A DNA stretch of 64,000 nucleotides from Thermoanaerobaculum sp. (GTDB lineage: Bacteria > Acidobacteriota > Thermoanaerobaculia > Multivoradales > UBA5704). The stretch lies in the NCBI GenBank assembly GCA_021154885.1, contig JAJKHS010000031.1:1-64000 (forward strand), in the 5' to 3' direction. The position numbers were made by a program, and so were the translations under genes. Positions 8,111-64,000 of the stretch are shown here, piece after piece. The notes under the pieces are model-generated. The model did not search any database. It was not told the DNA's origin and worked only from the letters and a program-made list of their open reading frames with translations. Position 1 is the stretch's first letter; the number at the start of each line of letters is the position of its first letter.

Positions 8111-9220
8111 ATGAGACTCGAGATTCGCCTCGGGATCGCGGCTCTCCTCGCCCTCCTCGTCCTGCCGCTGCGTGTCCCGGCGGCCTCTCCCGCGCCCTCG
8201 CGCCTGGAGGCGAACGCCGACCCGATCGTGCGGGCCGCCATGGCCCGGCATGGCACGCCGGGTCTGATGCTCGCCGTCGTCGACGCCGGACGGGTGGTGC
8301 TCGCGAAGGGCTATGGCGTGCGCTCGCTGCCGTCGGGGCCGGTGCCGGACGCGGACACCGTCTTCGCCATCGGCTCCATCTCCAAGGCGGTGACCGCCGT
8401 CGGTGCCATGCTGCTGGTCCAGGACGGCAAGCTGCAGCTGGACGAGCCCGCCGCGAGCTACCTCCCCGACCTGCCGGAGCGGTGGCGGAACATCACCGTC
8501 CGCCAGTTCATGACCCACACCAGCGGCGTCCCTCAGGTCCCCAGGGCGACGTCCTTCGCCGCCGCCCTGCGGCGGGCGGCCGGCGAGCCCATGACCTTCA
8601 GGCCCGGCTCCGACCAGGAGTACAACAACTTCAACTTCGCCGTGATCGGCAAGGTCGTCGAGGCGGTGAGCGGCCAGCCGTACCTCGACTTCATGCGCCT
8701 GCGGGTGTTCGGTCCGCTGCACATGAGCTCGACGGGCGTGCGGGTGGAGAGCGCCGACCGGGCGACCGGGTACACGGCCGGACCCGGCGGCGGCCTGCGG
8801 TCGGGCGCGCCGGGCTTTGCCGCCGGCGACTACGGCGTCCCCTCGGGCGGGCTGGAGTCGACCGCCGCCGACCTGCTCAGGCTCGAGGCGGGGCTGCGGG
8901 ACGGCCGGCTGCTCCGGCCGGAGGCCACCTGCCAGATGTGGACCCCCGCCGTCCCCCCCGGCACCCACTACACCTGGAACTTCACCCCCGGCTGGCAGCG
9001 CCGGGTAGCCGGCGGCACCCTGGTGATCGCCAAGAACGGCGCCGTGACGGGCTTCACCAGCATGATCCAGATGGTGCCCAGCCGCGGCGCCGCGGTGATC
9101 CTGCTGTGGAACCTCAAGCAGCCGGGCAACGATTTCTGGGCCCCCACTGCCGACCTCCTCCAGCGCGCTTTCGGCACCCCGCGGCCGGCCCGAGGCGAGG
9201 ACGGCGCAGGCGGGGAGTAG
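8111..9220 (+). CDS. exported beta-lactamase-fold serine hydrolase, 369 aa
   Basis: Signal peptide up to about residue 25 (LPLRVPAA). The class C beta-lactamase/DD-peptidase (PF00144) motifs are present: S-I-S-K at 89-92 with nucleophile Ser89, and Y-N-N at 171-173 as the second motif. A clear KTG is replaced by a KNG-like segment near the C-terminus, so it is probably an esterase or D-peptidase rather than an antibiotic-resistance enzyme. It is followed by a perfect hairpin that separates it from the convergent Kazal-like gene. Confidence 0.85.
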   Translation: MRLEIRLGIAALLALLVLPLRVPAASPAPSRLEANADPIVRAAMARHGTPGLMLAVVDAGRVVLAKGYGVRSLPSGPVPDADTVFAIGSISKAVTAVGAMLLVQDGKLQLDEPAASYLPDLPERWRNITVRQFMTHTSGVPQVPRATSFAAALRRAAGEPMTFRPGSDQEYNNFNFAVIGKVVEAVSGQPYLDFMRLRVFGPLHMSSTGVRVESADRATGYTAGPGGGLRSGAPGFAAGDYGVPSGGLESTAADLLRLEAGLRDGRLLRPEATCQMWTPAVPPGTHYTWNFTPGWQRRVAGGTLVIAKNGAVTGFTSMIQMVPSRGAAVILLWNLKQPGNDFWAPTADLLQRAFGTPRPARGEDGAGGE

Positions 9221-9237
9221 ATTGCTGTCGCGGGTGA

Positions 9238-9268
9238 GGTGCGGGGCCGCGCCATGCGGCCCCGCACC
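9238..9268. terminator. perfect 13-bp hairpin between convergent genes
   Basis: GGTGCGGGGCCGC (9238-9250), loop GCCAT, then its exact complement GCGGCCCCGCACC (9256-9268). It lies between the stop codons of the serine hydrolase (9220) and the minus-strand Kazal-like gene (9283), where a bidirectional terminator is expected. No T-run on either side, so termination could be hairpin-only or Rho-assisted. Confidence 0.75.
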
Positions 9269-9282
9269 GGCGCTCAGGGGCT

Positions 9283-9510
9283 CTAGATGGTATTGCCGTA
9301 CGGCACGCAGCCGGTGGCGCAGTCCAGAGAGGCGAAGCAGGCGTTGGAATAGACGTGGCCGTTCGAGCAGATCACCGGAGCGTAGTTTTCGGGGCAGAGG
9401 CAGCGCGGACAGCAGCCGCCGCCGAAGGAGGCCTGCGAGGACGCCGGGATGGCGAGGGCGCCCACCACCAGCGTTGCCGCCAGAGCGAGCTTCAGAACCA
9501 TTTTCTTCAT
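9283..9510 (-). CDS. small secreted Kazal-like Cys-rich protein, 75 aa
   Basis: Signal peptide MKKMVLKLALAATLVVGALA with cleavage near ASSQA. The mature part of about 48 aa has the Kazal serine-protease-inhibitor spacing: C-x-C-P-x-N-Y-x-P-V-I-C-S-N-G-x-x-Y-x-N-x-C, ending in DCATGC. The classical second Cys after PV is followed by the usual SNGHVYSNAC block. Probably an exported protease inhibitor or a Kazal-fold structural peptide. The AAAGGAG site 6 nt before the ATG supports the start. Its neighbours are three exported hydrolases or peptidases. Confidence 0.8.
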   Translation of the reverse strand: MKKMVLKLALAATLVVGALAIPASSQASFGGGCCPRCLCPENYAPVICSNGHVYSNACFASLDCATGCVPYGNTI

Positions 9511-11793: not shown

Positions 11794-13707
11794 TTACGTT
11801 ACGCGGGTGTCATATCCGAAAGAGGCCTGGACGGCAAGAGCCAATACGTTCTCTCGGCCTGCGGGTTGCAGCACGAGACTCAGATAATAGCCGTTCTCCT
11901 CAAACAGGAGCCCGCGCTCCCGCAGGGCCGCGACCTCTCTCGTCACTGCATCGACCGACAGGTCCCCCAGGATGTCGACCAGCCGCGGAATCTTGTGATT
12001 CTGGCGGAGCGCGTGCAGCACCCGCAGAGCCGGCGGGCTGATCCTGTGCTCGACACGGCTGCCACTTCGGCTGTCGCTGACCAGGGTGTCGCCGCCGCTC
12101 TCCTCAAAGACCAGCTCCGGCTTCGGGCTGCGTTCCCACAACGCCCACCACTGGGCGACTCGCTCGCGCAGCTTCCCCAGCCAGCGCGAGGTGTTCACAA
12201 GGTAAGCAGCGCTCAGGTCCTCGTCGCGGAAGAAGTATGCGAAGTCTTCCAGGTCTTCGCTCGGGAAGGGGTAGATCATGGAATAGAAATCGCTCGACCG
12301 CAGTTTGAGGCCGTACTCGGAAGCCAGTTTGTGGTATGGGCTGAAGCGGTCGAAACGGATGGGGAAGACCCCGCCGGGCGGGTAGAGATGGGTGAGTAAA
12401 GGGATGTCCTTATAATATTTCTCGTAAACCGATTCCGGTTCTCCCGGGAAGCCGACCAGGAGGTTCCAGTTCGGCGTGATCCGAAAACGGTGGCAATGCA
12501 TCAGGAACTGCAGGTTTTGGAAAGACGTCGTACCTTTCTTCATCAACTTGAGCGTCGAGGTCGAGAGCGCCTCGATCCCCGGCTGGATCCGAGTCACGCG
12601 CGCCCGCTCCAGGACCGCCATCTCGTGCTCCTTGAGGTCGGCCTTGATCTCATAGAACAGGCTCGTGTTGCCCGGCGGATTCAGGTGGGGGAGCACGTCT
12701 GTCAGGTACTCGCGAGGCAGGATATTGTCGACGGACTCGAACTCCTCCACCCGCGAGCCGTAGCGGTCGAACAGCTCCTGCATGTGCTCGACGGCCAGGC
12801 TCGGCGCCATCGCTCGATATTTCATCGTGGTCCCGTTCAGTCCGCAAAAGGTGCAGTGGGACCGCTCCCCCCACCAGCAGCCCCGTGAGGTCTCGAAGGG
12901 GAGGCGCGGCTTGAACTGCGAGCCCCTGACCTTGCTGCCCAAGGCGGTGAAATAGTCTTCGTAGTCGAGCGGCAGCTTCTCGTCGATGCTGAGCTCTTCG
13001 CCGATTTCCCGGCATTGGCCGGCCGGCGTCAGGGCCAGCTTGCGCCGCGACAGGACCCCGGGGATCCGATGACAGCTCTCCATCTCCCCGGCCAGCAAAT
13101 GCTCGACGAACTGAGGGAAGCTGCTCAGAGCCGGCCCTGAGAACACGAAGTCGACCTGTTTGACATGTCTCGCGATGACGGCGCCCATCGGCGCCTCGCA
13201 GTTGGCGCCGCCCATGACGATCAGCGTCTCGGGACGCTTCTCCTTCAAGCGCTTTGCCACCGCGAAAGATGCGATGTTCTGGGAGAACATCGACGTCAGC
13301 CCCACGAGCGGGTAGTCGGAGAGGCGATAGCGGTCGATCAGGCCGCGGAGGAACTGCCCGACGGTCCGCCGCTTGGCAAGAAGCTGCGGCTTGACCAGCG
13401 CGAGCTGCGTCCGTTGTTGGGAGAAGTGGCGATTGAGGTACAGCTCCGATTGATCCGGCAGCTCGGGAAAGGCATCGGCGCTGAAAAACCAGTCGCCGAG
13501 GCCCGCCGTGTTGGCCTCCACGGACTGCGAGATCATGTGGTACAAGGGCAGTCCCAGGTAGTTCACCAGGTCGAGATTGAGATAGAAGATGTCACAGCTC
13601 ACCCGGTCTCCCAGCTTCCGTGTGACGGCGGCCTTGAGCTGGGTAAGGGCGATGGAGGGGATATCCGCCGCCGCAAACGGCATGCTGACGAGAGCCACCC
13701 TGTACAT
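11794..13707 (-). CDS. cobalamin-type radical SAM enzyme of the RiPP-maturation C-methyltransferase family, 637 aa
   Basis: The N-terminus (MYRVALVSMPFAAADIPSIAL, about 1-200) matches the B12-binding-like start of the 'RiPP maturation radical SAM protein 1' family. The [4Fe-4S] motif is the unusual C-x7-C-x2-C (Cys277, 285, 288, in SRGCWWGERSHCTFCG) rather than C-x3-C-x2-C, as in that family. Members are predicted to C-methylate unactivated carbons of peptides using methylcobalamin and SAM. Here the gene starts 51 nt after the stop of the last NRPS gene, with an AAAGGAG ribosome site, so it is probably a tailoring enzyme of the NRPS product. No RiPP precursor gene lies next to it. The family call is firm; substrate and reaction are inferred. 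Confidence 0.85.
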   Translation of the reverse strand: MYRVALVSMPFAAADIPSIALTQLKAAVTRKLGDRVSCDIFYLNLDLVNYLGLPLYHMISQSVEANTAGLGDWFFSADAFPELPDQSELYLNRHFSQQRTQLALVKPQLLAKRRTVGQFLRGLIDRYRLSDYPLVGLTSMFSQNIASFAVAKRLKEKRPETLIVMGGANCEAPMGAVIARHVKQVDFVFSGPALSSFPQFVEHLLAGEMESCHRIPGVLSRRKLALTPAGQCREIGEELSIDEKLPLDYEDYFTALGSKVRGSQFKPRLPFETSRGCWWGERSHCTFCGLNGTTMKYRAMAPSLAVEHMQELFDRYGSRVEEFESVDNILPREYLTDVLPHLNPPGNTSLFYEIKADLKEHEMAVLERARVTRIQPGIEALSTSTLKLMKKGTTSFQNLQFLMHCHRFRITPNWNLLVGFPGEPESVYEKYYKDIPLLTHLYPPGGVFPIRFDRFSPYHKLASEYGLKLRSSDFYSMIYPFPSEDLEDFAYFFRDEDLSAAYLVNTSRWLGKLRERVAQWWALWERSPKPELVFEESGGDTLVSDSRSGSRVEHRISPPALRVLHALRQNHKIPRLVDILGDLSVDAVTREVAALRERGLLFEENGYYLSLVLQPAGRENVLALAVQASFGYDTRVT

Positions 13708-13758
13708 GATTGCAGACTCCTTTTTTCTACGGACCGATTATTAGGGCGCCCAGGTGCC

Positions 13759-52291
<38,533 letters not shown>

Positions 52292-52295
<4 letters not shown>

Positions 52296-55200
52296 ACCTC
52301 TCCCGTCGAACGTCCTCTGTGTCGCACGGTCGTCTGCTTCAGCCGACGATTTTCGCGGGCTACCGGGGTGATCCCCGGGAGCGCCGTGCTCAGGCCACCG
52401 GCCTTGACCCGCCCGATCTCGCCCGAGAGCCCCTCCACCGTAGGGGCGTCGAACAGGGTACGGAGCGGGAGGTCCACGGCGAAGGCCTCGCGTACCCGGG
52501 CGATAACACGCGTGGCCAGCAGCGAATGCCCCCCCAGATCGAAGAAGTTGTCGTGGATCCCCACCCGCTCGATCCCCAGCATGTCGGCCCAGATGGCCGC
52601 CAGGACCTCTTCCTCCGCCGTGCCGGGCGCGACGAAGCCATCGTCGAGGTCGGGGCGGACCCGCTCGGGCTCGGGCAGGGCGCGGCGGTCGACCTTGCCC
52701 TGGGGAGTGCGCGGCAGGCGCTCCAGAGGCATGAAGCTCGCGGGAACCATGTGCTCCGGCAGCTTCGTCAGGAGGAAACGGCGCAGCTCGCTCGTGGTCG
52801 GTGCCGGATCGCCTGCGGGCACCAGGTATCCCACCAGACGCTTGCCGTCGACGGCATCCGCCCAGGCCACCACGACGGCCGCGATCACACCCGGATGCTG
52901 GCTCAGCGCCACCTCGATCTCTTCCAGCTCCACCCGGAAACCGCGGACCTTGACCTGGTGATCGAGGCGGCCGAGGAACTCGAAGAGGCCTGCCGGCGTG
53001 CAGCGCGCGAGATCGCCGGTGCGGTACAACCGCGATCCGGGCTCGCCGCCGAACGGGTCGGGAATGAATCGCGCGGCGGTCAGGTCGGGGCGGCCGAGAT
53101 AGCCTCTCGCCAGGCTTCCACCCCCGATGGCGAGCTCGCCCGGGATGCCGATCGGCAGAGGCTCGAATCGGGGGTCGAGCACATGGACGCGAGCTCCGGT
53201 CAGCGGCCTTCCCAGCGGCAGGACGTTGGAGCCCGGCGCCGCAACGGGCTCGTCCGCCCGATAGGTGAGCACGCCCACCGTGGTCTCGGTGGGGCCGTAG
53301 TGATTGAGATAGATGCAGCCAGGGGACGACCGGCGGATCTCCTGCACCCGATCCCAGTACGATGCCTCACCGCCGACCAGCAGCAGGCGCCGCGGCAGGA
53401 TCCGCTCGCCGTAACCGCTCGCCATCAGCACGGCCAGGTGCGAAGGGGCGACCTTCAGGTAGTCGACCGGCTGGCGGCCGAGGAGGTCCGCCAGCGCCGC
53501 GGGCTCGCTCAGCCGCTCCGGGGTGATCAGGTGCAGGACCCCACCATGGCAGAGCGAGGCGAAGAGATAGGTGATCGGCGCGTCGACGGCGAGGCTCTGC
53601 TGCAGGGCGAACGAGGCCCCGGCCGGCGGCCCCAGGCGCTCCAGGATCCCGTGCAGATAGGCGCGGAGCTGAGAGTGCTGCCCGGCGACCCCCTTGGGCT
53701 CCCCGGTCGAGCCCGAGGTGTAGATGACGTACGCGAGGTGGTCTGGCGTCGCGCCGGCGACCGGATCGGCCTCGCTCTCGCGGTCGAGCCCCTCGCCGGC
53801 CGTCTCGATGCTCACCACCGCCACCCCCAGGCCGGCCAGGCGCCCGGCCAGGCCCTCCCGGGTGACCACTGCCGGCACGCGGGCGTCGGCGAGCAGGAAG
53901 GCGAGACGTTGCCGGGGGAGGGCCAGGTCGAGCCCGAGGTAGCCCCCGCCCGCCTTGTGGATGGCCAGCATGGCGACGACCATTTCGATCGAGGGCTCGA
54001 TCAGGATCCCGGCCACCGTCTCCAGCCCGACGCCGAGCCGGCGCAGGCGATACGCCAGCCGGTTGGCGAGCCGGTTCAGCTCGGCGTAGCTCAACCGCCG
54101 GTCCTCGCACACCACCGCGGGCGCGTCGGGCGTGGCCGCGGCCTGCCGCTCGAAGAGCTGATGGACGCACAGGTCCCAGGATCCCGGTGAGCCGCCGTCG
54201 TTCCACTCGACGGTGAGCTGTTGCCGCTCGGCTTCGCCGAGCAGAGGAAGGTACGACAGGGGGAGCTCGGGATCGGCCATTGCCTGCTCCACGAGCCGGA
54301 CCCAGTGCGCGCCCAGGCGGGCCACCGTGGGACGGTCGAAGAGGGCGGTGCGATAGCGCAGCATCCCGCCCAGCCGCCCGTCCCCCTCCACGAGCGACAG
54401 GACCAGATCGAACTTCGTCGTCGCCACCTCCCCCTCGAGCAGCCGCAGCGTGAGGCCGGGCAGCTCCACGGGGGCTCCGCCGGCGTTCTCGAGGGCGAAC
54501 ACCACCTGGAAGAGCGGCGTGTGGCTGAGGCTGCGCTCCGGCCGCAGCTCCTCCACCAGCTTCTCGAACGGCAAATCCTGATGCGCCTGCGCCCCCAGGG
54601 CCGTCTCCCGCACGCGGCCGACCAGCTCACGTAAGCCCGGATCACCCTCCAGGTCGCCGCGCATGACGAGAGTGTTGACGAAGAGGCCGATCAGGCCTTC
54701 GGTCTCCACATGGTGCCGGCCCGCGATGGGCGTGCCGACGGCGACCACCGGCTGGCCGGAGTAGCGCGAGAGGAGTGCCTCGAAGGTTGCCAGGAGCGTC
54801 ATGAACAGGGTGACCCGCTGGTGACGGCTCCACTCCTTCAGCCCTTCGGCGAGGCCGGGCGGCCAGGACAGGCTCTCCGCGGCGCCCTCGAAGCTGGCCA
54901 CGGGTCCGCGCGGCCGGTCGGTGGGAAGGTCGAGGACCGCCGGCACGCCCGCCAGGCGGTCCCGCCAATAGGCGAGCTGGCGCTGCAGGACCTCATCCCG
55001 CAGCCAGGATCGCTGCCAGGCCGCGAAGTCGGCGTACTGGACGGGCAGCTCCGGCAGGGGAGAGGAACGGCCGGTGGAGAAGGCGGAGTAGAGCTCCGCC
55101 AGCTCGCGCAGGAAGACCTGGATGGACCAGCCGTCGCTCGCGATGTGGTGCGTGGTGACCAGGGCGACGTGCTCCCGCTCGCCGAGCCGCAGGAGACGCA

Positions 55201-58200
55201 GGCGCAGCAGCGGCCCTGTCGCGAGGTCGAACGGCCGCTCCGCCTCCTCCCGCGCCAGGCGGGCGACCTCGGCAGCGCGCTCTGCCATGGGCTGATCGCT
55301 CAGGTCCAGCGGCCGCAGGTCGAAAGGCTCCGGAGGGTGGATCTCCGGGACCGGCCGGCCGGCGTCGACGCGGAAGGTCGTGCGCAGCACCTCGTGCCGG
55401 CGCGCGATCTCCCCCAGGACGGCTGCGAGGGCGGTGCCGTCCAACGGCCCGTCGAGCTGGAGCGCGGCGTGGACGTTGTAGGCCATGGTTCCGGGCTCGA
55501 GCTGCTCGAGAAACCACAGCCGCTCCTGGGCGAACGAGAGCTGCGGCTCCGCATCCCGCGGCAGGCGTGTGATGGGCGGAGGCACCAGCCCCGCCCCCGC
55601 CTGAGCCGCCTCGGCCACCGCTGCCGCCACCTCCGCCACCGTGGGACCGTCCAACAGACGACGCAGGGTCAGCTCCACCCCGAACGTCTCGCGCACCCGC
55701 GCCACGAGGCGGGTGGCGATCAGCGAGTGCCCGCCCAGCGTGAAGAAGTTGTCGTGCACTCCGACGCGGTCGAGGCCGAGCACCTCGGTCCACGTGGCGG
55801 CCAGGAGCTCCTCGGCGGCGTTGCGCGGCGCCACGAACCCCTCTCCATCCGCCGCGCGCGAACGCTCCGGCGCCGGCAGCGCCTTGCGGTCCAGCTTGCC
55901 ATTGGCCGTCACCGGCATGGCGTCGAGGAAGACGAAGGCCGCGGGCACCATGTATTCGGGCAGCCGCTCCCGCAGGTGGACCCGCAGCTCCCCGGCTTCC
56001 ACCGCCTCCTCCCGCGGCACCACGTAGGCCACCAGCCGCCGGTCCCCGGGCGCGTCCTCCCGCACCAGCACCACCGTCTCGCGGACCTTCGGGTGCTCGC
56101 CCAGCGCCGTTTCGATCTCTCCCAGCTCGATGCGGAAACCCCGAACCTTGACCTGGGTGTCCAACCGGCCCAGGAACTCCAGCAGGCCGTTGCCCCAGTA
56201 CCGCGCCCGGTCTCCCGTCCGGTACAGCCGCGCTCCCCGCCCCTCGCCACAGCCGTCCGGCACGAGTTTCCAGGCCGTCAGGGCGGGGTCCTGGAGATAG
56301 CCCAGGGCGAGACATTCGCCCCCGATGTAAAGGTCGCCCCCGACGCCGATCGGGCACGGGTCGAGGCTCCGGTCCAGCACGTGGTAGCGGGCGTTCTGGA
56401 TGGGCCGGCCGTACGGGATGCTCGTCCAATCCCGCTCCACCTCCTCGACCGGGAACCGGTTCGACCAGACCGTCGCCTCCGTGGCGCCTCCCAGCGCCAC
56501 CACCCGGGCGCGCGGGAACGCTTTTCTCACCTCACCCGGGAGTCCCAGCGGCACCCAGTCGCCGCTGAGGAACACCAGGCGCAGAGGGCTGCGGCCCTCC
56601 GCCCGGGAGGCCCGGGAGAAGAACGGCACCAACTGCTGCAGGGCCGCCGGCGCCGAATCCCAATAGGTGATCGCTTCCTCCTCCAGGGCGCGCACCAGCA
56701 ACGCCGGATCCTGCAGCTCCGCTTCCGAGGCCACCCGCACCGATCCCCCTGCGGACAGCAGGCCGAAGACGTCGTAGACCGACAGATCGAAGCTCAGGGC
56801 GGTGACGAACAGCACCCGGTCCCCGGGGCCCATCCGGAAGCTCGCGTTGACCCATTCGATCAGGTTCACCACCGGCCGGTGCCGCACCATGACGCCCTTG
56901 GGCGTTCCCGTCGATCCCGAGGTGAAGATCACGTAGGCCAGGTCTTCCGGACCCGGCGGGGCCTGCGGCGTCGCCACGAGCCCGCGCCGGCTCTGCCGTC
57001 CCCAGAGACGCAGGCGGCCGTGCGCCGCGGGCTCGTGGTCCTCGACCAGCAGGAGGTGCTCGAGCCGTGGCAGGTCCAGCTCGGCCAGCGCCTCCACCCG
57101 CCGCCCCTGGGTCACCGCGCAACGGATCCCCAGCGTCGACAGGAGCCAGCTCACCCGCGCCGGTGGCAGGCTCACCTCCACCGGCACATAGGCCGCTCCG
57201 CTCTTCAGGATGCCCAGCAGAGCCGGCACCATCTCGGCGCACCGGTGCAGGTGCACCGCCACGAGGTCTCCCGGCCCGACCCCCAGCTCCCGGAGTTGGA
57301 GCGCCAGCCGGCTCGCCTCTTCCTCCACCTCGCGATAGCTCCAGATGGCTTCTCCGCACAGCACCGCCACCGCCTCCGGCTGCTCGGCCGCCCGCTCTCC
57401 GATCGCGTCGAGGATCGAGCGGCTGCGGCCGTATGCAGAGGCCGTGTCGTTCCACTCCGTGAGGATCTGATGGCGCTCCGTGTCGGCCAAGAGGCGCAGA
57501 TCCGAAAGCCGGGCGCCCGGGCTCAGAGACAGGCTCTCCAGGAGGGCCGTGAGGTGGCCGAGGAAACGGTGGATCGTCGCCCGTTCGAAGCGCCCGCTCT
57601 CGTAGCGCAGCTCCAGCGGGAGCTGCCGGGCGGGCCAGGAGCCCAGGCTCAGCGCGAAGTTCGTACGGTTGAAGAACTGGAAATCCGCATCCGCCTCGAT
57701 GCCGGCGCCGAAGTCGCCGACCATCTCGTCCACCGGGAAGTTGTCGAAGACCACGAGGCTCTCGAACAGCGGCAGGCCCCGAGGCACGTCGCTCCAGCCC
57801 TGGATCTCGATCAGGGAGGTGTGCTGATGGAGCCGAAGCTCCGCCTGTCCATCCTGAAGCCCACGGAGCCAGGGGACGACCGGAGCGCCGGGATCGATGA
57901 CCACCCGGACCGGCAGAGTGTTGATGAACAGGCCGATCATGGACTCGACGCCCGCGAGCTCCGGCGGCCGCCCGGAATTGGTGGCTCCGAAGACCACGTC
58001 GGGCTCGCCGCTGTAGTGGTGGAGCAGCAGGGCCCAGGCCCCCTGCACCAGGGTGTTGAGTGTGAGGCGGTTCTGCCGCGCCAGCGTCCGCAGCCGGTCG
58101 GTGGTCTCGCCTCCCAGCCGGGCGGCCATATCGGCATGGGGTCTTTCCCCCGGTGGGTGAAGGCCCGGACGGAACGGCAGGGGCGTCGGCGCCGTGAAAC

Positions 58201-61200
58201 CCTGGAGGGCCCGCGTCCAGACGGCCTGCCCCGCACGCGGATCCTGCGTCTGCAGCCAGCGGATGTAGTCGCCGTACGGGCGGCTCGGGGCGAGGCCGGC
58301 CTCCCGGCCTTGCGCGAAGGCCTTGTAGAGCACGGAGACTTCGCTCAGCACCCGCGCCACCGACCAGCCGTCGAGCACGACGTGGTGGAAGGTCCAGATC
58401 AGCTTGTAGACCGTCTCCGCCAGGCGCACCAGGGCGACGCGCACCAACGGTGCGCGTCCGAGATCGAACCCCCGGCGGCGGTCGGCGGCCAGCCAGGCCT
58501 CCAACTGGTCCCGCTGCGCCTCCGGCCGAAGGTGGCGCCAATCCTCCTCCTGCCAGGGCAGCTCCGGATGCTGCTCCACGGCTTGGAGCGGCTCGTCCGA
58601 CCCTGCCCAGCGGAAGCCGGTCCGCAGCGCCGCGTGCCGCGACACGACCCCCTCCCAGGCATGTCGAAAGGCGACAGCATCGAGGTCGCCCCGGAGGGTG
58701 TACACCGCCTGGTCGAGGTAGATGCCGGCTGCCGGGGCGAGCTGGGCGAAGAACAGCATGGCGCGCTGCATCCGCGAGGCGGGGTAGACGTCCTGCGCGG
58801 CTGCGGCGAAAGGAACGGCCGGAGCGAGCTCCACCGGTGCGGAAGGCGCCGCGGCCAGTGCGGCCAGCTCGGCGATCGTCTGGTGCTGGAAGACCTGTTG
58901 GGGCGTGAACGTCAGCCCCGCCTGGCTCGTCCGGGCGAGGACCTGGATGCTGACGATCGAATCCCCGCCCAGCTCGAAGAAGTTGTCGTGCACGCCCACG
59001 CGGTCCAGCTCGAGCACCTCGCCCCAGATCCGCGCCAGCGTCTCCTCGACGGGGGTCCGGGGCGCCACGAAGCGGCCCCCCCCGGCTTCCTCGTCCGGCG
59101 GTGGCAGAGCCCGGCGGTCGAGCTTGCCGTTGGTCGTCAGCGGCATTGCGTTGAGGAACACGTAGGCCGAGGGGTTCATCGGCTCGGGCAGGCGCTCGCG
59201 GACGAACCGGCGCAGGGCCGCGGCGTTCAGGTCGTAGCGCGACCGCAGGACCACGTAGGCGGCCAGGTGTTTCTTGCCTGCCGGCCGCTCGTAGACGGTC
59301 ACCACCGCCTCGCGGATGCCGGCGTGGCTCTCGAGGACGGCCTCGATCTCCCCCAGCTCGATGCGAAAGCCCCGGAGCTTGATCTGGTGGTCCACCCGGC
59401 CGAGGAACTCGACGTGGTCCCCCGGGACGAAGCGGACGAGGTCGCCGGTGCGATAGAGGCGGGAGCCTCTTTCCGGGTCGAAGGGGTTCGGGATGAACCT
59501 CTCCGCGGTGGCTTCCGGATTTCCCAGATAGCCTCTCGACACGCCGCCGCCACCGACGTACAGCTCGCCCGGCACGCCGACCGGCACCGGCTCGAGCCGG
59601 CCATCGAGGACGTAGACGCGGCTGCCGGGAAGCGGAGCCCCGAGGGGGACACCGGCCGTCCCGGGAGCGCCGCGATCTGCCGCCGGGGCCGCCGGGCCGG
59701 TCATCACTCCGACGGTGGTCTCGGTCGGACCGTAGTGGTTGAGGATCTGAAGCTCCGGCGCCGATTCCCGAATGTCGCGGACCAGGTCCCAGCCCAGAGC
59801 CTCGCCGCCGACGACGAGCCGGCGTTGCGGCAGGATCTCCTCGGGCCGCTCGTGCGACATCAAGGCCACCAGGTGAGAGGGGACGATCTTGAGGCAGTCG
59901 ATCCGGTGGCGGCGGCAGTATTCGGCGAACGCGGCGGGATCGGACGCCCGCTCCTGGGAGATGAGGTGCAGCGTGCCGCCGGTGCAGAGGGCCGGGTAGA
60001 TCGCCGTGTTGCCCAGGTCCGCCGCCAACGTCGAAACCGTGGCGAACGAGGCGCCGGACGGCAGGTCGAGCCGGCGCAGGATCCCCTCCAGATAGTGGAG
60101 CAGGTGCCGGTGCTCGATCGCCACCGCCTTCGGACGGCCCGTGGACCCTGACGTGAAGAGGACGTAGGCCAGGTTCTCCGGCTCGGTGAGCGGGAGAGGG
60201 TCGGTCTCGCTTCGGGACGACAGCTCGGGGTCGCCGGGCAGGACGGTCGGGATGCCGGTGTCCGGAAGGCTGCCGCCGGCGGCCCCGAGGATCGCCTTCG
60301 CCCCGGCCTGCGCGAGCATGGCCGCCAGGCGCGCCGCGGGATACGCCGGATCGAGAGGCACGAAGGCGGCGCCGGACTTGAGGACCCCCAGCAGGGCCAC
60401 GACGACGTCCAGCGAGCGTTCCAGGCCGATGGCGACGCGGTCCTCGGGGCCGATCCCCAGGGCGCGAAGGTGGTGGGCCAGGCGGTTGGCCCGCCGGTTC
60501 AGAGCGTCGTAGGTGACCGCATCGCCTTCGAACACCGCGGCCGTCGCCGCGGGCGTGAGCCGGACCTGCCGCTCGAACCTCTCCTGGACGCTGCGGGCCG
60601 TCACGACGGGAGCTGCGGACGCGTTGAACGACACCAGCAGCCGGTCCCGCTCCTCGGGCCCCAGCAGATCCAACTCGGCGCAGGTCCGGCCGGGGTCCGC
60701 CAGCGCGTCCTGCAGCAAGGCGAGGAACCGCCGGGCGACTCCCCGCGCCGCGGGTTCGCTCAGCACGGCCGCGTCGTAGTGGAGATCGACGGTGAGCCCG
60801 TCGGGCCGCAGCAGGCAGTCGAGCTGCACCCTGAACGGCTCGAGGGCGATCCGGCGCTCGAGCAGGCGGCCGGGGCCGCCCCCCGGAGCTGCTGCCGTCC
60901 AGTCCTCGAAATCGAACCCCGCCGCATGGGACGCCGCCTCCCGGGAGTCGCGGCCTCCCTCCTCCCAATCGGCGTAGTCCTGCCACTCTGCGACCTCGGC
61001 CCGGGCGTCCGCCACCTGCCGCAGGACTTCATGGAAACGCTGCCGCGGATCGAAACGCCCGCGCACGGGCAACCAGCGCGCAAAGAGCCCCAGGGCGTCC
61101 GCCATCTCGGCGTGCCTTCTGCCGTCGAAGACGACGCCTGCCGAGGTCCGGTCGCCTCCTCCCAGGCGCCAGAGGAGGGTCATCCAGCCGCCCAGGAGGA

Positions 61201-61975
61201 CGTCGGACAGCGTGACTCCGTGCGCCCGGGCGCAGCTTGCCAGCGCGGGCAGGTCGGGGGTCAGGTCGAGCCGCACCGAGCGGGGCTCGAAGCCACCCTC
61301 CGCCACGGCCGGCCGCTCTCCGGGAAGCGGCGGCAGATCGCCCCCGCCGAGTCCCTGCCGGCGCCAGAACGTACGGGCGGCGTCCACGTTCTCGTCCTCC
61401 GAATCGGCCCGGAACAACTCGTTCTGCCATGCGGACACGTCGGCATACTGGAGGGGTTCCTCCGACCGGGGAGTCCCCGGACCGCAGGCCCCCAGGAGCT
61501 CGAGCACGAGTTGGCGCAGGCTCCGGGAATCGGCGCAGAGGACGGGCAGGGTCACGACCAGGGCGTAGCGGTCCGGCCCGAGCCCGACGGCGAGCAGGCG
61601 CAGGAGGGGGCCGTGGGCCAGATCGGCCCCGGCATCGCGCTCGTCGTCCAGGAGCCGGCGCAGAGACGCCCCCTGATCCGCGGCAGGGAGGTCCGCCAGC
61701 GAGAGCTCCCGCCAGGCGGGCTCCAGGTGCTCGTGGACGACCTGGAAGGGCACCTTGACGCCCTGGCCCTCGGGACTCTGGAAGGTGGTGCGGAGGATCT
61801 CATGGCGGGCCACCACCCGTTGCGCCGCGTCCCGCAGCGCCGGAGGCCGGAGGCGGCCCTCGATCGCAACCGCGCACTGCGCGGCCGCGCCGGACCCTCC
61901 GGCTCGCAACCAGAGCCGCCTCTGGAGGGGGGACAGCCGGAAACCCACGACGCTCGGGCTCGCCATCGGCTCCAT
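52292..61975 (-). CDS. three-module NRPS beginning with an inactive C-like domain, 3227 aa
   Basis: First complete NRPS in the window. Order: C-like*-A-T, C(D-type)-A-T, C-A-T. Approximate residues: module 1 10-1045, 2 1061-2120, 3 2145-3195. Predicted residues: Asp (probably beta-hydroxylated by the TauD domain of the preceding protein), X1, Asp/Asn. It starts 8 nt after the stop of the C-TauD gene with GAGG about 6 nt upstream; ATG at 61966 is an alternative start. The C-terminal tail of about 30 aa is basic (RRLKQTTVRHRGR) and may dock to the next protein. No epimerase, MT or TE. Confidence 0.95.
52391..55543 (-). other. NRPS module 3 of the 3227-aa protein (Asp or Asn)
   Basis: C 2145-2595 (HHIASDG at 2276-2282), A 2601-3100, T 3115-3190 with Ser3151. 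Pocket code D-A-T-K-L-G-H-V-G-K is close to the Asp code DLTKVGHIGK. His322 favours Asp over Asn, which usually has Glu there; Ala236 is unusual. Its LAVDAPIT segment belongs to the same clade as the Asp A domain of module 1. Confidence 0.8.
55616..58795 (-). other. NRPS module 2 of the 3227-aa protein (D-type C; Cys-like code, X1)
   Basis: C 1061-1510 is of the D-type class: DVYPASRMQRAMLFF start, FHHVVLDGW (motif 1197-1203), PYGDYIRWLQTQD. A 1520-2033, T 2045-2115 with Ser2084. Pocket code D-L-Y-D-F-S-L-V-W-K, identical to module 4 of the 5152-aa NRPS. No epimerase precedes this C domain. Confidence 0.8.
58841..61948 (-). other. NRPS module 1 of the 3227-aa protein (inactive C-like domain, Asp)
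   Basis: C-like 10-455, in which HHxxxDG is replaced by LPVLCADS (143-150), so no catalytic His. A 465-955, T 968-1040 with Ser1006 in ELGGDS. Pocket code D-L-T-K-V-G-H-V-G-K is essentially the Asp code. The C-like domain resembles non-condensing 'interface' C domains described beside beta-hydroxylases of T-bound amino acids (from memory). The active C domain for this residue would be the one on the preceding C-TauD protein. Confidence 0.85.
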
Positions 61976-61983
61976 GGGCGACC

Positions 61984-62994
61984 TCAGCTCGCCTGCTGCG
62001 GGTAGAGCTCGCCCATGGCCACCGCAATCTTGCGGGGTCCGGCGAAAGGATTACGGGCGTGCGCGACCAGCATGTTGTCGAGCAGCAGCAGGTCCCCGGG
62101 TTGCCAGGGGAAGCTCACCGAGAGGCGCCAGTACAGGTCGAGCACCGCGCGGACGACGTCCTCCGCGATCGGCGAGCCGTCGCCGTAGAAGACGTTGCGG
62201 GGGAGCCTCTCCTCGGGGAAGAGGGCGAGGAGCGACGCCCGGATCTCGGGGTCGAGGCAGGCCGGATGGTGGAGCTGCAACTGGTTGAAGAAGATCTTCT
62301 CGCCGGTCCGCGGATGCACCGTCACGGCGGGGCAGATCTGCCGCGTGGTCAGCCCATCCTGCCGCCACTCGAGCTGCATTCCGGCCTGCCGGCAGGCCGC
62401 CTCCACCGCGGCCTGGTCCGCCGTATGGAAGAAGTCGCGCCAGTTGACGTCGAGCCCGTCCGTGAAGTTGCGGACGTACATGAGACCCTTCTCCTCGAAC
62501 GGCCGGGTGATCGCCGGGTCGAGCCGCCGGTACACCTCGCGGCAGTCGACGATCGGCGTCTCGCCGCCGGCCTGGGCCGGCTGGACGCAGAAGAACATCT
62601 GCCGCAACGGCCAGCGGCCGAGATGAGAGCTCTCGTTGTGGAAGAGGATCGCCTTGTCCGCCGGGTAGGGCGTCGAGTGGTAGATCCGCTCGGCCCCCTC
62701 CTGCCGGGGGAGATCGCCGTAGTCGGCGAACAGGTTCGGGCAGATGGCCGACGCGCTCCGCTCGAACTCCGCCACCGAGCCCAGGCCGAAGCCGCGGAGC
62801 AGGATCGCCCCATGCGTCGCGAGCCAGGCCTCCAGGTCGGCGCGGTGGGCCACCGCCCAATCGGCGAGGTCGACCTCGGCCCCCGCGGGCTCGACGAGAA
62901 GCGGCCAACCCGGGTCGGGCAGCAGGGGGCGGCTCCGGACCGGGTTCAGGTTGGATAGATCGACCGACTGGCGTTGCAGCGTCCGCTTCTTGAA
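61984..62994 (-). other. SyrP-like Fe(II)/2-oxoglutarate hydroxylase domain
   Basis: C-terminal domain of about 335 aa at the end of the C-domain protein. HxE and distal His ligands and the C-terminal Arg are all present, so it should be active. By family, the product would be a beta-hydroxy-amino acid on a T domain; the adjacent Asp-loading module makes beta-hydroxy-Asp the best guess. Confidence 0.88.
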
Positions 62995-64000
62995 CGGCGA
63001 CTCCTGATGCGGCTTGGTTTCCACGTTTCTGGGCTCCTTTTCTCTTTGGACGACGAGCTCGAGCCGGCTCACGCGTGTGTCCGGTTGGGCGACGACCTGC
63101 TCGAGCAGGCCCTCCAGGCGGCTGGCGAACCTGTCGATCGTCCCCGGGTCGAACAGCTCGGTGCTGTAGTTCCAGGACATTGCCAGGCCCTGCTCCGTCT
63201 CGCTGACGAACAGTGCCAGGTCGAACCGCGACGTCGCGAAGTCGAAGTCGACCGCCTGGAACCGCAGGCCACCCACCTCCGGCGCGGCCGCCGGCGCGTT
63301 CTGCAGGACGAACAGCGCCTGGAACAGCGGCATGTGGCTGAGGCTCCGCTTCGGGCTCAGCGCTTTGACGAGACGGACGAACGGCAGGTCCTGGTGGGCA
63401 TAAGCGCCGAGGCAGGTCTCCCGGACTCCCTGGAGCACCTCGCGGAAGGTGGGGTTGCCGGAGAACCGCGTCCGCAGGACCAGGTGGTTGATGAAGAAGC
63501 CGACCTGCGCCTCGAGCTCGGTGCGGTTGCGGCTCGCGACGTCGGTGCCCACGACGACGTCCTCCTGCCGGGTCAGGACGTGGAGGAACGTCTGGAAGCC
63601 GGCCAGCAGCGTCATGAAGAGCGTTGCGCCCTCCTGCCGGCTGAGCGCGCGGAGCGCCCGGGAGAGGCCGTCCGGCAAGCCGGAGACCCGGTGGGCGCCG
63701 CGGAAGGTCCGGCTCTCGGGCCGGGGCCGGTCGGTGGGCAGAGCGAGGACCTCGGGGGCCCCCGCAAGCTGACGCCGCCAGTAAGCGAGCTGAGCCTCCG
63801 CCGTCGGCCCCGCCAGCCAGCGCCGCTGCCACGCGGCGAAGTCGGCGTACTGGAGGGGAAGCTCCGGCAGGGGCGATGGCCGGCCGGCGGCGAAGGCGGT
63901 GTAGAGAGCCGTGACCTCGCGGACCAGGACCCCCAGCGACCAGCCGTCGGCGACGATGTGGTGGACCGTGAGCAACAGCACGTGCTCCTGAGGCCCCTGC
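61984..64000 (-). CDS. C domain fused to SyrP/TauD-like beta-hydroxylase (3' part of an NRPS gene)
   Basis: The reading frame runs off the right edge, so the start and any upstream modules are missing; at least 671 codons are visible. Numbering from the first in-frame GTG codon at 63981: C domain to about 300 with intact HHIVADG (7-13), then TauD-like domain 330-665 with the Fe(II) facial triad H448-x-E450 (FHNESSH) and His641 (LLDNMLVAHARNPF), and the 2-oxoglutarate-binding Arg650 (GPRKIAVAMG). The last segments match the SyrP subgroup, which beta-hydroxylates Asp on a carrier protein. No A or T domain lies between them. It is followed after 8 nt by the NRPS whose first A domain reads Asp. 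Confidence 0.92.
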   Translation of the reverse strand, partial: QGPQEHVLLLTVHHIVADGWSLGVLVREVTALYTAFAAGRPSPLPELPLQYADFAAWQRRWLAGPTAEAQLAYWRRQLAGAPEVLALPTDRPRPESRTFRGAHRVSGLPDGLSRALRALSRQEGATLFMTLLAGFQTFLHVLTRQEDVVVGTDVASRNRTELEAQVGFFINHLVLRTRFSGNPTFREVLQGVRETCLGAYAHQDLPFVRLVKALSPKRSLSHMPLFQALFVLQNAPAAAPEVGGLRFQAVDFDFATSRFDLALFVSETEQGLAMSWNYSTELFDPGTIDRFASRLEGLLEQVVAQPDTRVSRLELVVQREKEPRNVETKPHQESPFKKRTLQRQSVDLSNLNPVRSRPLLPDPGWPLLVEPAGAEVDLADWAVAHRADLEAWLATHGAILLRGFGLGSVAEFERSASAICPNLFADYGDLPRQEGAERIYHSTPYPADKAILFHNESSHLGRWPLRQMFFCVQPAQAGGETPIVDCREVYRRLDPAITRPFEEKGLMYVRNFTDGLDVNWRDFFHTADQAAVEAACRQAGMQLEWRQDGLTTRQICPAVTVHPRTGEKIFFNQLQLHHPACLDPEIRASLLALFPEERLPRNVFYGDGSPIAEDVVRAVLDLYWRLSVSFPWQPGDLLLLDNMLVAHARNPFAGPRKIAVAMGELYPQQAS

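Follow-up and report, generated by a model that had tools for sequence, protein, structure and literature searches.

The gene at positions 11794 to 13707 on the minus strand of the window (the whole 64,000-nucleotide stretch of DNA that was analysed) encodes a cobalamin radical SAM C-methyltransferase and stands at the end of a large operon of nonribosomal peptide synthetase (NRPS) genes. The protein is a member of the TIGR03975 family, carries the family's cluster motif, and belongs to a branch that is tied to NRPS genes and has no RiPP precursors. Very probably, an operon for a nonribosomal lipopeptide has this as its last biosynthetic gene, whose product would add one or more methyl groups to unactivated carbons of that peptide. 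We also consider it rather likely that the branch, which occurs in at least five phyla, is a dedicated NRPS partner that has diagnostic residues of its own and can do without a leader, and that its signature alone predicts C-methylated nonribosomal peptides, for example those with tert-leucine. The dedicated NRPS-partnered branch is what is new here.

The enzyme gene and its NRPS operon

The enzyme gene and the operon consist of the following features.

11794 to 13707, minus strand: TIGR03975-type cobalamin radical SAM C-methyltransferase of the NRPS-linked branch (637 amino acids; 546.5 bits; motif CWWGERSHCTFC; 28-sequence clade, support 100)
13708 to 13758, minus strand: 51-nt spacer between the NRPS stop codon and the enzyme ATG, in which the ribosome-binding site AAAAAAGGAG precedes the ATG by nine bases
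13759 to 36840, minus strand: NRPS gene 4 (7693 amino acids; seven modules and a C-terminal thioesterase, from seven HHxxxD motifs, seven carrier sites, one GWSMGG and the A-domain codes)
36837 to 52295, minus strand: NRPS gene 3 (5152 amino acids; four modules, of which the third contains a methyltransferase domain, from motifs and Pfam)
52292 to 61975, minus strand: NRPS gene 2 (3227 amino acids; three modules, from motifs and Pfam)
61984 to 64000, minus strand: NRPS gene 1, cut by the window end and running on to position 80631 of contig C31 (6215 amino acids; AMP ligase, carrier domain, four modules and a C-terminal TauD-type oxygenase domain)

The open reading frame of the enzyme begins with ATG. 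TIGR03975, the profile named 'RiPP maturation radical SAM C-methyltransferase', matches residues 4-613 over its entire length (model positions 1-606 of 606, E=7.8e-164), scoring 546.5 bits where the curated cut-off is 281.85 bits; the protein is a full-length family member. Pfam Radical_SAM is clear (E=7.7e-11), and the B12-binding domain PF02310 gives a weak match that stays under the gathering score (17.4 bits, E=0.004). The motif CWWGERSHCTFC reads C277-W-W-G-E-R-S-H-C285-T-F-C288, which is C-x7-C-x2-C, and C277, C285 and C288 do not vary across 59 aligned family members. Both the family and the motif had been named in the sequence-only reading, and these results bear them out. Solved structures matched by profile include the remote cobalamin radical SAM enzymes TokK and OxsB, of which TokK is the best match. 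The observation is not due to chance, because the profile score far exceeds the cut-off and the NRPS linkage recurs in homologues of several phyla.

The surroundings of the gene also agree with the sequence-only reading, which had described a thioesterase-terminated NRPS gene 51 nt away, a ribosome site belonging to the enzyme gene, and no adjoining precursor peptide. The NRPS gene is co-directional and ends with the GWSMGG-bearing domain. No terminator-like or promoter-like site was found in the spacer. On the far side, 56 nt separate the enzyme gene from an M13 peptidase gene; with gaps of 51 and 56 nt, therefore, no precursor gene can directly adjoin it. Within 3 kb, a single small open reading frame was called (9283-9510, minus strand), and it matches no RiPP family. 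It encodes a secreted, Cys-rich protein of 75 amino acids, Kazal-like by eye, without a Pfam or NCBIfam match, and it was rejected as a precursor on its lack of a family match and its resemblance to a secreted Cys-rich protein. The M13 peptidase gene was likewise rejected as part of the system, as no homologue lies near any other family member.

From the first NRPS gene through the enzyme gene, the operon gaps are 8, -4, -4 and 51 nt, NRPS genes 3 and 4 overlapping by 4 nt. The whole line consists of four genes with 18 A domains and reaches beyond the window to 80631. NRPS gene 1 begins with Pfam AMP-binding and AMP-dom_DIP2-like followed by PP-binding, read as a fatty acyl ligase with its carrier, that is, a fatty-acid loading start. 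Because of this start and the 18 A domains, the predicted product should be a lipopeptide of about 18 residues. In the third module of NRPS gene 3, Pfam Methyltransf_12 follows the A domain and precedes the carrier domain. Judged by the nearest published codes, the A domains would select Thr, Gly, Leu, Asp, Ala, Gln, Ile and other residues; none of the codes points plainly to a branched unusual amino acid. An Ile/Val-type module (DAFFLGVTFK) holds the fourth A domain counted from the thioesterase end, in the last NRPS gene. The TauD-type oxygenase part of NRPS gene 1 occupies 61984-63981 (minus strand) of the window. A further NRPS gene of 1796 amino acids (contig C31, 94430-99820, plus strand; L009) lies upstream of the operon and is divergent from it.

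The NRPS-linked branch of the family

The family sample comprised 91 sequences, brought together by scanning the genomes of 84,980 species with a pattern and by searching related genomes; the 63 control sequences were collected for their similarity to the query. In a 90-sequence tree, the window's enzyme falls in a clade of 28 sequences with support 100 on a stem of 0.85 changes per column, and the remainder of the family lies on the opposite side of that stem. The branches are also separated by a bit-score gap (492 vs 358). Members of the clade come from Acidobacteriota, Gemmatimonadota, Myxococcota, Actinomycetota and Pseudomonadota, together with one contig labelled Phycisphaerae and binned also as KSB1 (L028/L029). 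The window itself probably comes from an Acidobacteriota genome, judging by named members of its order and phylum. When the phyla to which L035 and L030 belong were searched for more members, only loci already known came up. The DscE/Entotheonella sequence was sought in a plasmid collection as well, where the matches among the records listed reached just 34-37% identity, as other-branch sequences do.

At thirty positions, conservation within the clade reaches 85% or more and the other branch differs. They include P192 and L194 (GPAL in the window's enzyme, GEAD in the other branch), M300, which is lysine in every sequence of the other branch, P331 (D in the other branch), Q23 and G69. The C-terminal region, at about residues 545-615, is conserved to about the same degree in both branches and therefore, by that measure, is not a lost leader-binding part.

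NRPS genes are the regular neighbours of the clade. A condensation domain lies within 5 kb of 14/18 decidable clade members vs 0/33 others (Fisher's test, p=2e-9), within 10 kb of 14/16 vs 4/23 (p=2e-5), and within 20 kb of 16/17 clade members, where a positive locus counts as decidable on any flank length but a negative one needs long flanks, a rule that favours linkage, and where the p values are uncorrected for kinship. The linkage state changes six times on the tree. Wider sampling added five members, and C or A domains link 22 of the resulting 33 to NRPS genes; the unlinked members lie mostly on short contigs. Two further members have NRPS helper genes, namely MbtH and a thioesterase at L049, and a type II thioesterase, a phosphopantetheinyl transferase and a TauD oxygenase near L142, which has no C or A link. 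The sole exception with long flanks on both sides is L094 (genome G029, contig C48), where 29 kb on each side hold no NRPS gene. The genome-context survey thus finds the additional NRPS-linked homologues for which the sequence-only reading had proposed to look.

The enzyme gene lies before, between or after the megasynthase genes, depending on the lineage, and often at about 55 nt or less (L028, L030, L035, L090, L091). The order is PKS-like gene, enzyme and NRPS at L028, and NRPS, enzyme and NRPS at L035. The small open reading frames differ as well: those within 3 kb of other-branch enzymes include Nif11 leaders (six), members of the NHLP leader family (five) and related families, whereas none of the 19 near clade members matches a RiPP family. 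This linkage, compared with that of the other branch, gives good support to the predicted NRPS partnership, and we infer the function of the branch from it. Across the partial clade clusters, the A-domain codes have no residue common to all, and no common target emerged.

Other genes accompany the enzyme in some clusters. TauD-type oxygenases adjoin the enzyme gene at L048 (5050-6048) and L142 (7922-8881), and in the window a domain of this type forms part of the first NRPS gene; these oxygenases may possibly contribute a paired hydroxylation step. In three distant genomes, a second cobalamin radical SAM enzyme lies beside the NRPS-branch enzyme (L030, 12031-13998; L045, 3384-5291; L138, 14090-16006), and the two that were compared, those of L030 and L138, resemble KedN5. 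The Kutzneria sp. 744 homologue (L045) is in a small NRPS cluster with this second radical SAM enzyme; a kutzneride link was considered and dropped, as nothing ties the cluster to kutzneride.

Annotation pipelines label such enzymes as RiPP maturases, and an NRPS branch with diagnostic residues would correct these labels. It would also point to clusters making C-methylated nonribosomal peptides, in which tert-leucine-like residues are hard to explain otherwise. The two branches form a natural pair for studying the change from leader-bound ribosomal peptides to assembly-line peptides.

Predicted reaction and substrate

By analogy with studied relatives, the 4Fe-4S cluster would split SAM to a 5'-deoxyadenosyl radical, which would abstract a hydrogen from an sp3 carbon. 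The resulting radical would then receive a methyl group from methylcobalamin, and a second SAM would remethylate the cobalamin. The substrate is probably the finished or nearly finished peptide rather than a free amino acid, which would place the enzyme late in the pathway, as DscE suggests. As a guess from the A-domain codes, the likeliest target would be the beta carbon of Ile/Val at the DAFFLGVTFK module; the Leu and Ala modules are alternative targets. C-methylation of a nonribosomal peptide had been proposed in the sequence-only reading, and as a prediction it is well supported. Of the conditions named there as refuting it, neither held: the homologues do show NRPS linkage, and the TIGR03798 leaders elsewhere in the genome have no family member near them.

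An enzyme of this kind could instead methylate a free amino acid or other building block prior to NRPS loading, which we regard as unlikely. In its favour, small molecules are the substrates of some other cobalamin radical SAM enzymes, and at L045 and L138 the second such enzyme (KedN5-like in L138) and an AMP ligase are close by. Against this, the studied relatives of the TIGR03975 family use peptides, the C-terminal region is kept in both branches, and the operon lacks an A-domain code clearly suited to a branched unusual amino acid. The substrate of DscE is likewise the released peptide (PMC12858407).

Maturation of a RiPP precursor encoded elsewhere in the genome, with the NRPS adjacency incidental, is very unlikely. 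The family is named for RiPP maturation, and leader-like peptides are indeed present on contigs C69, C81 and C144, but the genome itself is a good internal control for the pairing of branch and partner. Its two clade members are both on contigs with NRPS genes, which are immediate neighbours on C31 and 14-17 kb away on C19, and its one other-branch enzyme lies on contig C69, beside precursor-like open reading frames with a shared leader. The leader search that had been suggested earlier gave the same division: the precursors on C69 adjoin their own other-branch enzyme, and the TIGR03798 leaders on C81 and C144 have no family member near them. A search of the genome for NHLP leaders, run without a positive control, found none. 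Together with an NRPS linkage that is found again and again in the clade but seldom elsewhere, and with clade members that no precursor adjoins, these results count against a RiPP precursor as the substrate.

The C69 locus (L005, minus strand) is likely a RiPP system of the same genome. Its precursor-like open reading frames are at 9022-9225, 9254-9478 and 18613-18825 and share the leader K-x-LxLxRETLRxL; two are directly beside the other-branch enzyme, and two of the three have weak similarity to class I lanthipeptide leaders. The orphan leaders of Nif11 type (TIGR03798) are at L120 (9750-10055, C81) and L121 (9796-10044, C144).

The least probable alternative is a non-methylation step in the NRPS cluster, such as epimerisation or a ring change as in OxsB, for which OxsB among the remote solved relatives and clade-own residues at sites invariant in the other branch (for example M300 for K300) could speak, and against which stand TokK, a methylase, as the best solved match, the full-length match to a C-methyltransferase family, and the methylation by DscE (PMC12858407).

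Relation to known enzymes and pathways

The window's enzyme resembles the TIGR03975 RiPP enzymes in its full-length match, cluster motif, length and conserved C-terminal region, and differs from them in its separate branch, its NRPS neighbours in place of leaders, and about 30 diagnostic residues. PoyB and PoyC use radical chemistry to C-methylate valine and other residues during the biosynthesis of polytheonamides, compounds that are also discussed in PMC12858407. Unlike the substrate proposed here, theirs is a leader-bearing ribosomal precursor. TokK of the carbapenem pathway and CysS of the cystobactamid pathway are cobalamin radical SAM methylases of other subfamilies; CysS also serves an NRPS product, and the substrate of TokK is a small molecule. 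TokK, although the best solved profile match, aligns with the window's enzyme over part of the protein only.

A search of the open-licence literature found no paper on a dedicated NRPS branch of TIGR03975. In a sponge-microbiome survey, TIGR03975 calls were discarded as likely RiPP false positives (PMC9426513). The closest known case is DscE of the discodermin NRPS pathway in the sponge symbiont 'Candidatus Entotheonella monilis', which was shown in vitro to turn discodermin D into methylated congeners, a C-methylation of a nonribosomal peptide after its release (PMC12858407, Nat Chem Biol 2025). DscE had been expressed in E. coli together with helper plasmids for iron-sulfur clusters and cobalamin uptake. 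The same paper terms the combination of a cobalamin radical SAM methyltransferase with an NRPS unusual and gives two such clusters (PMC12858407). C-methylation of an NRPS product by such an enzyme is therefore not a first case, and none is claimed, because DscE was shown in 2025 (PMC12858407). The wider substrate range of the family, which the sequence-only reading had offered as the novelty, is largely pre-empted by it. As with DscE, the window holds a cobalamin radical SAM C-methyltransferase gene in an NRPS cluster, the two being compared by description; unlike the discodermin NRPS, which has a formyl start and 14 modules (PMC12858407), the line described here comes from another organism, begins with an acyl ligase and has 18 A domains.
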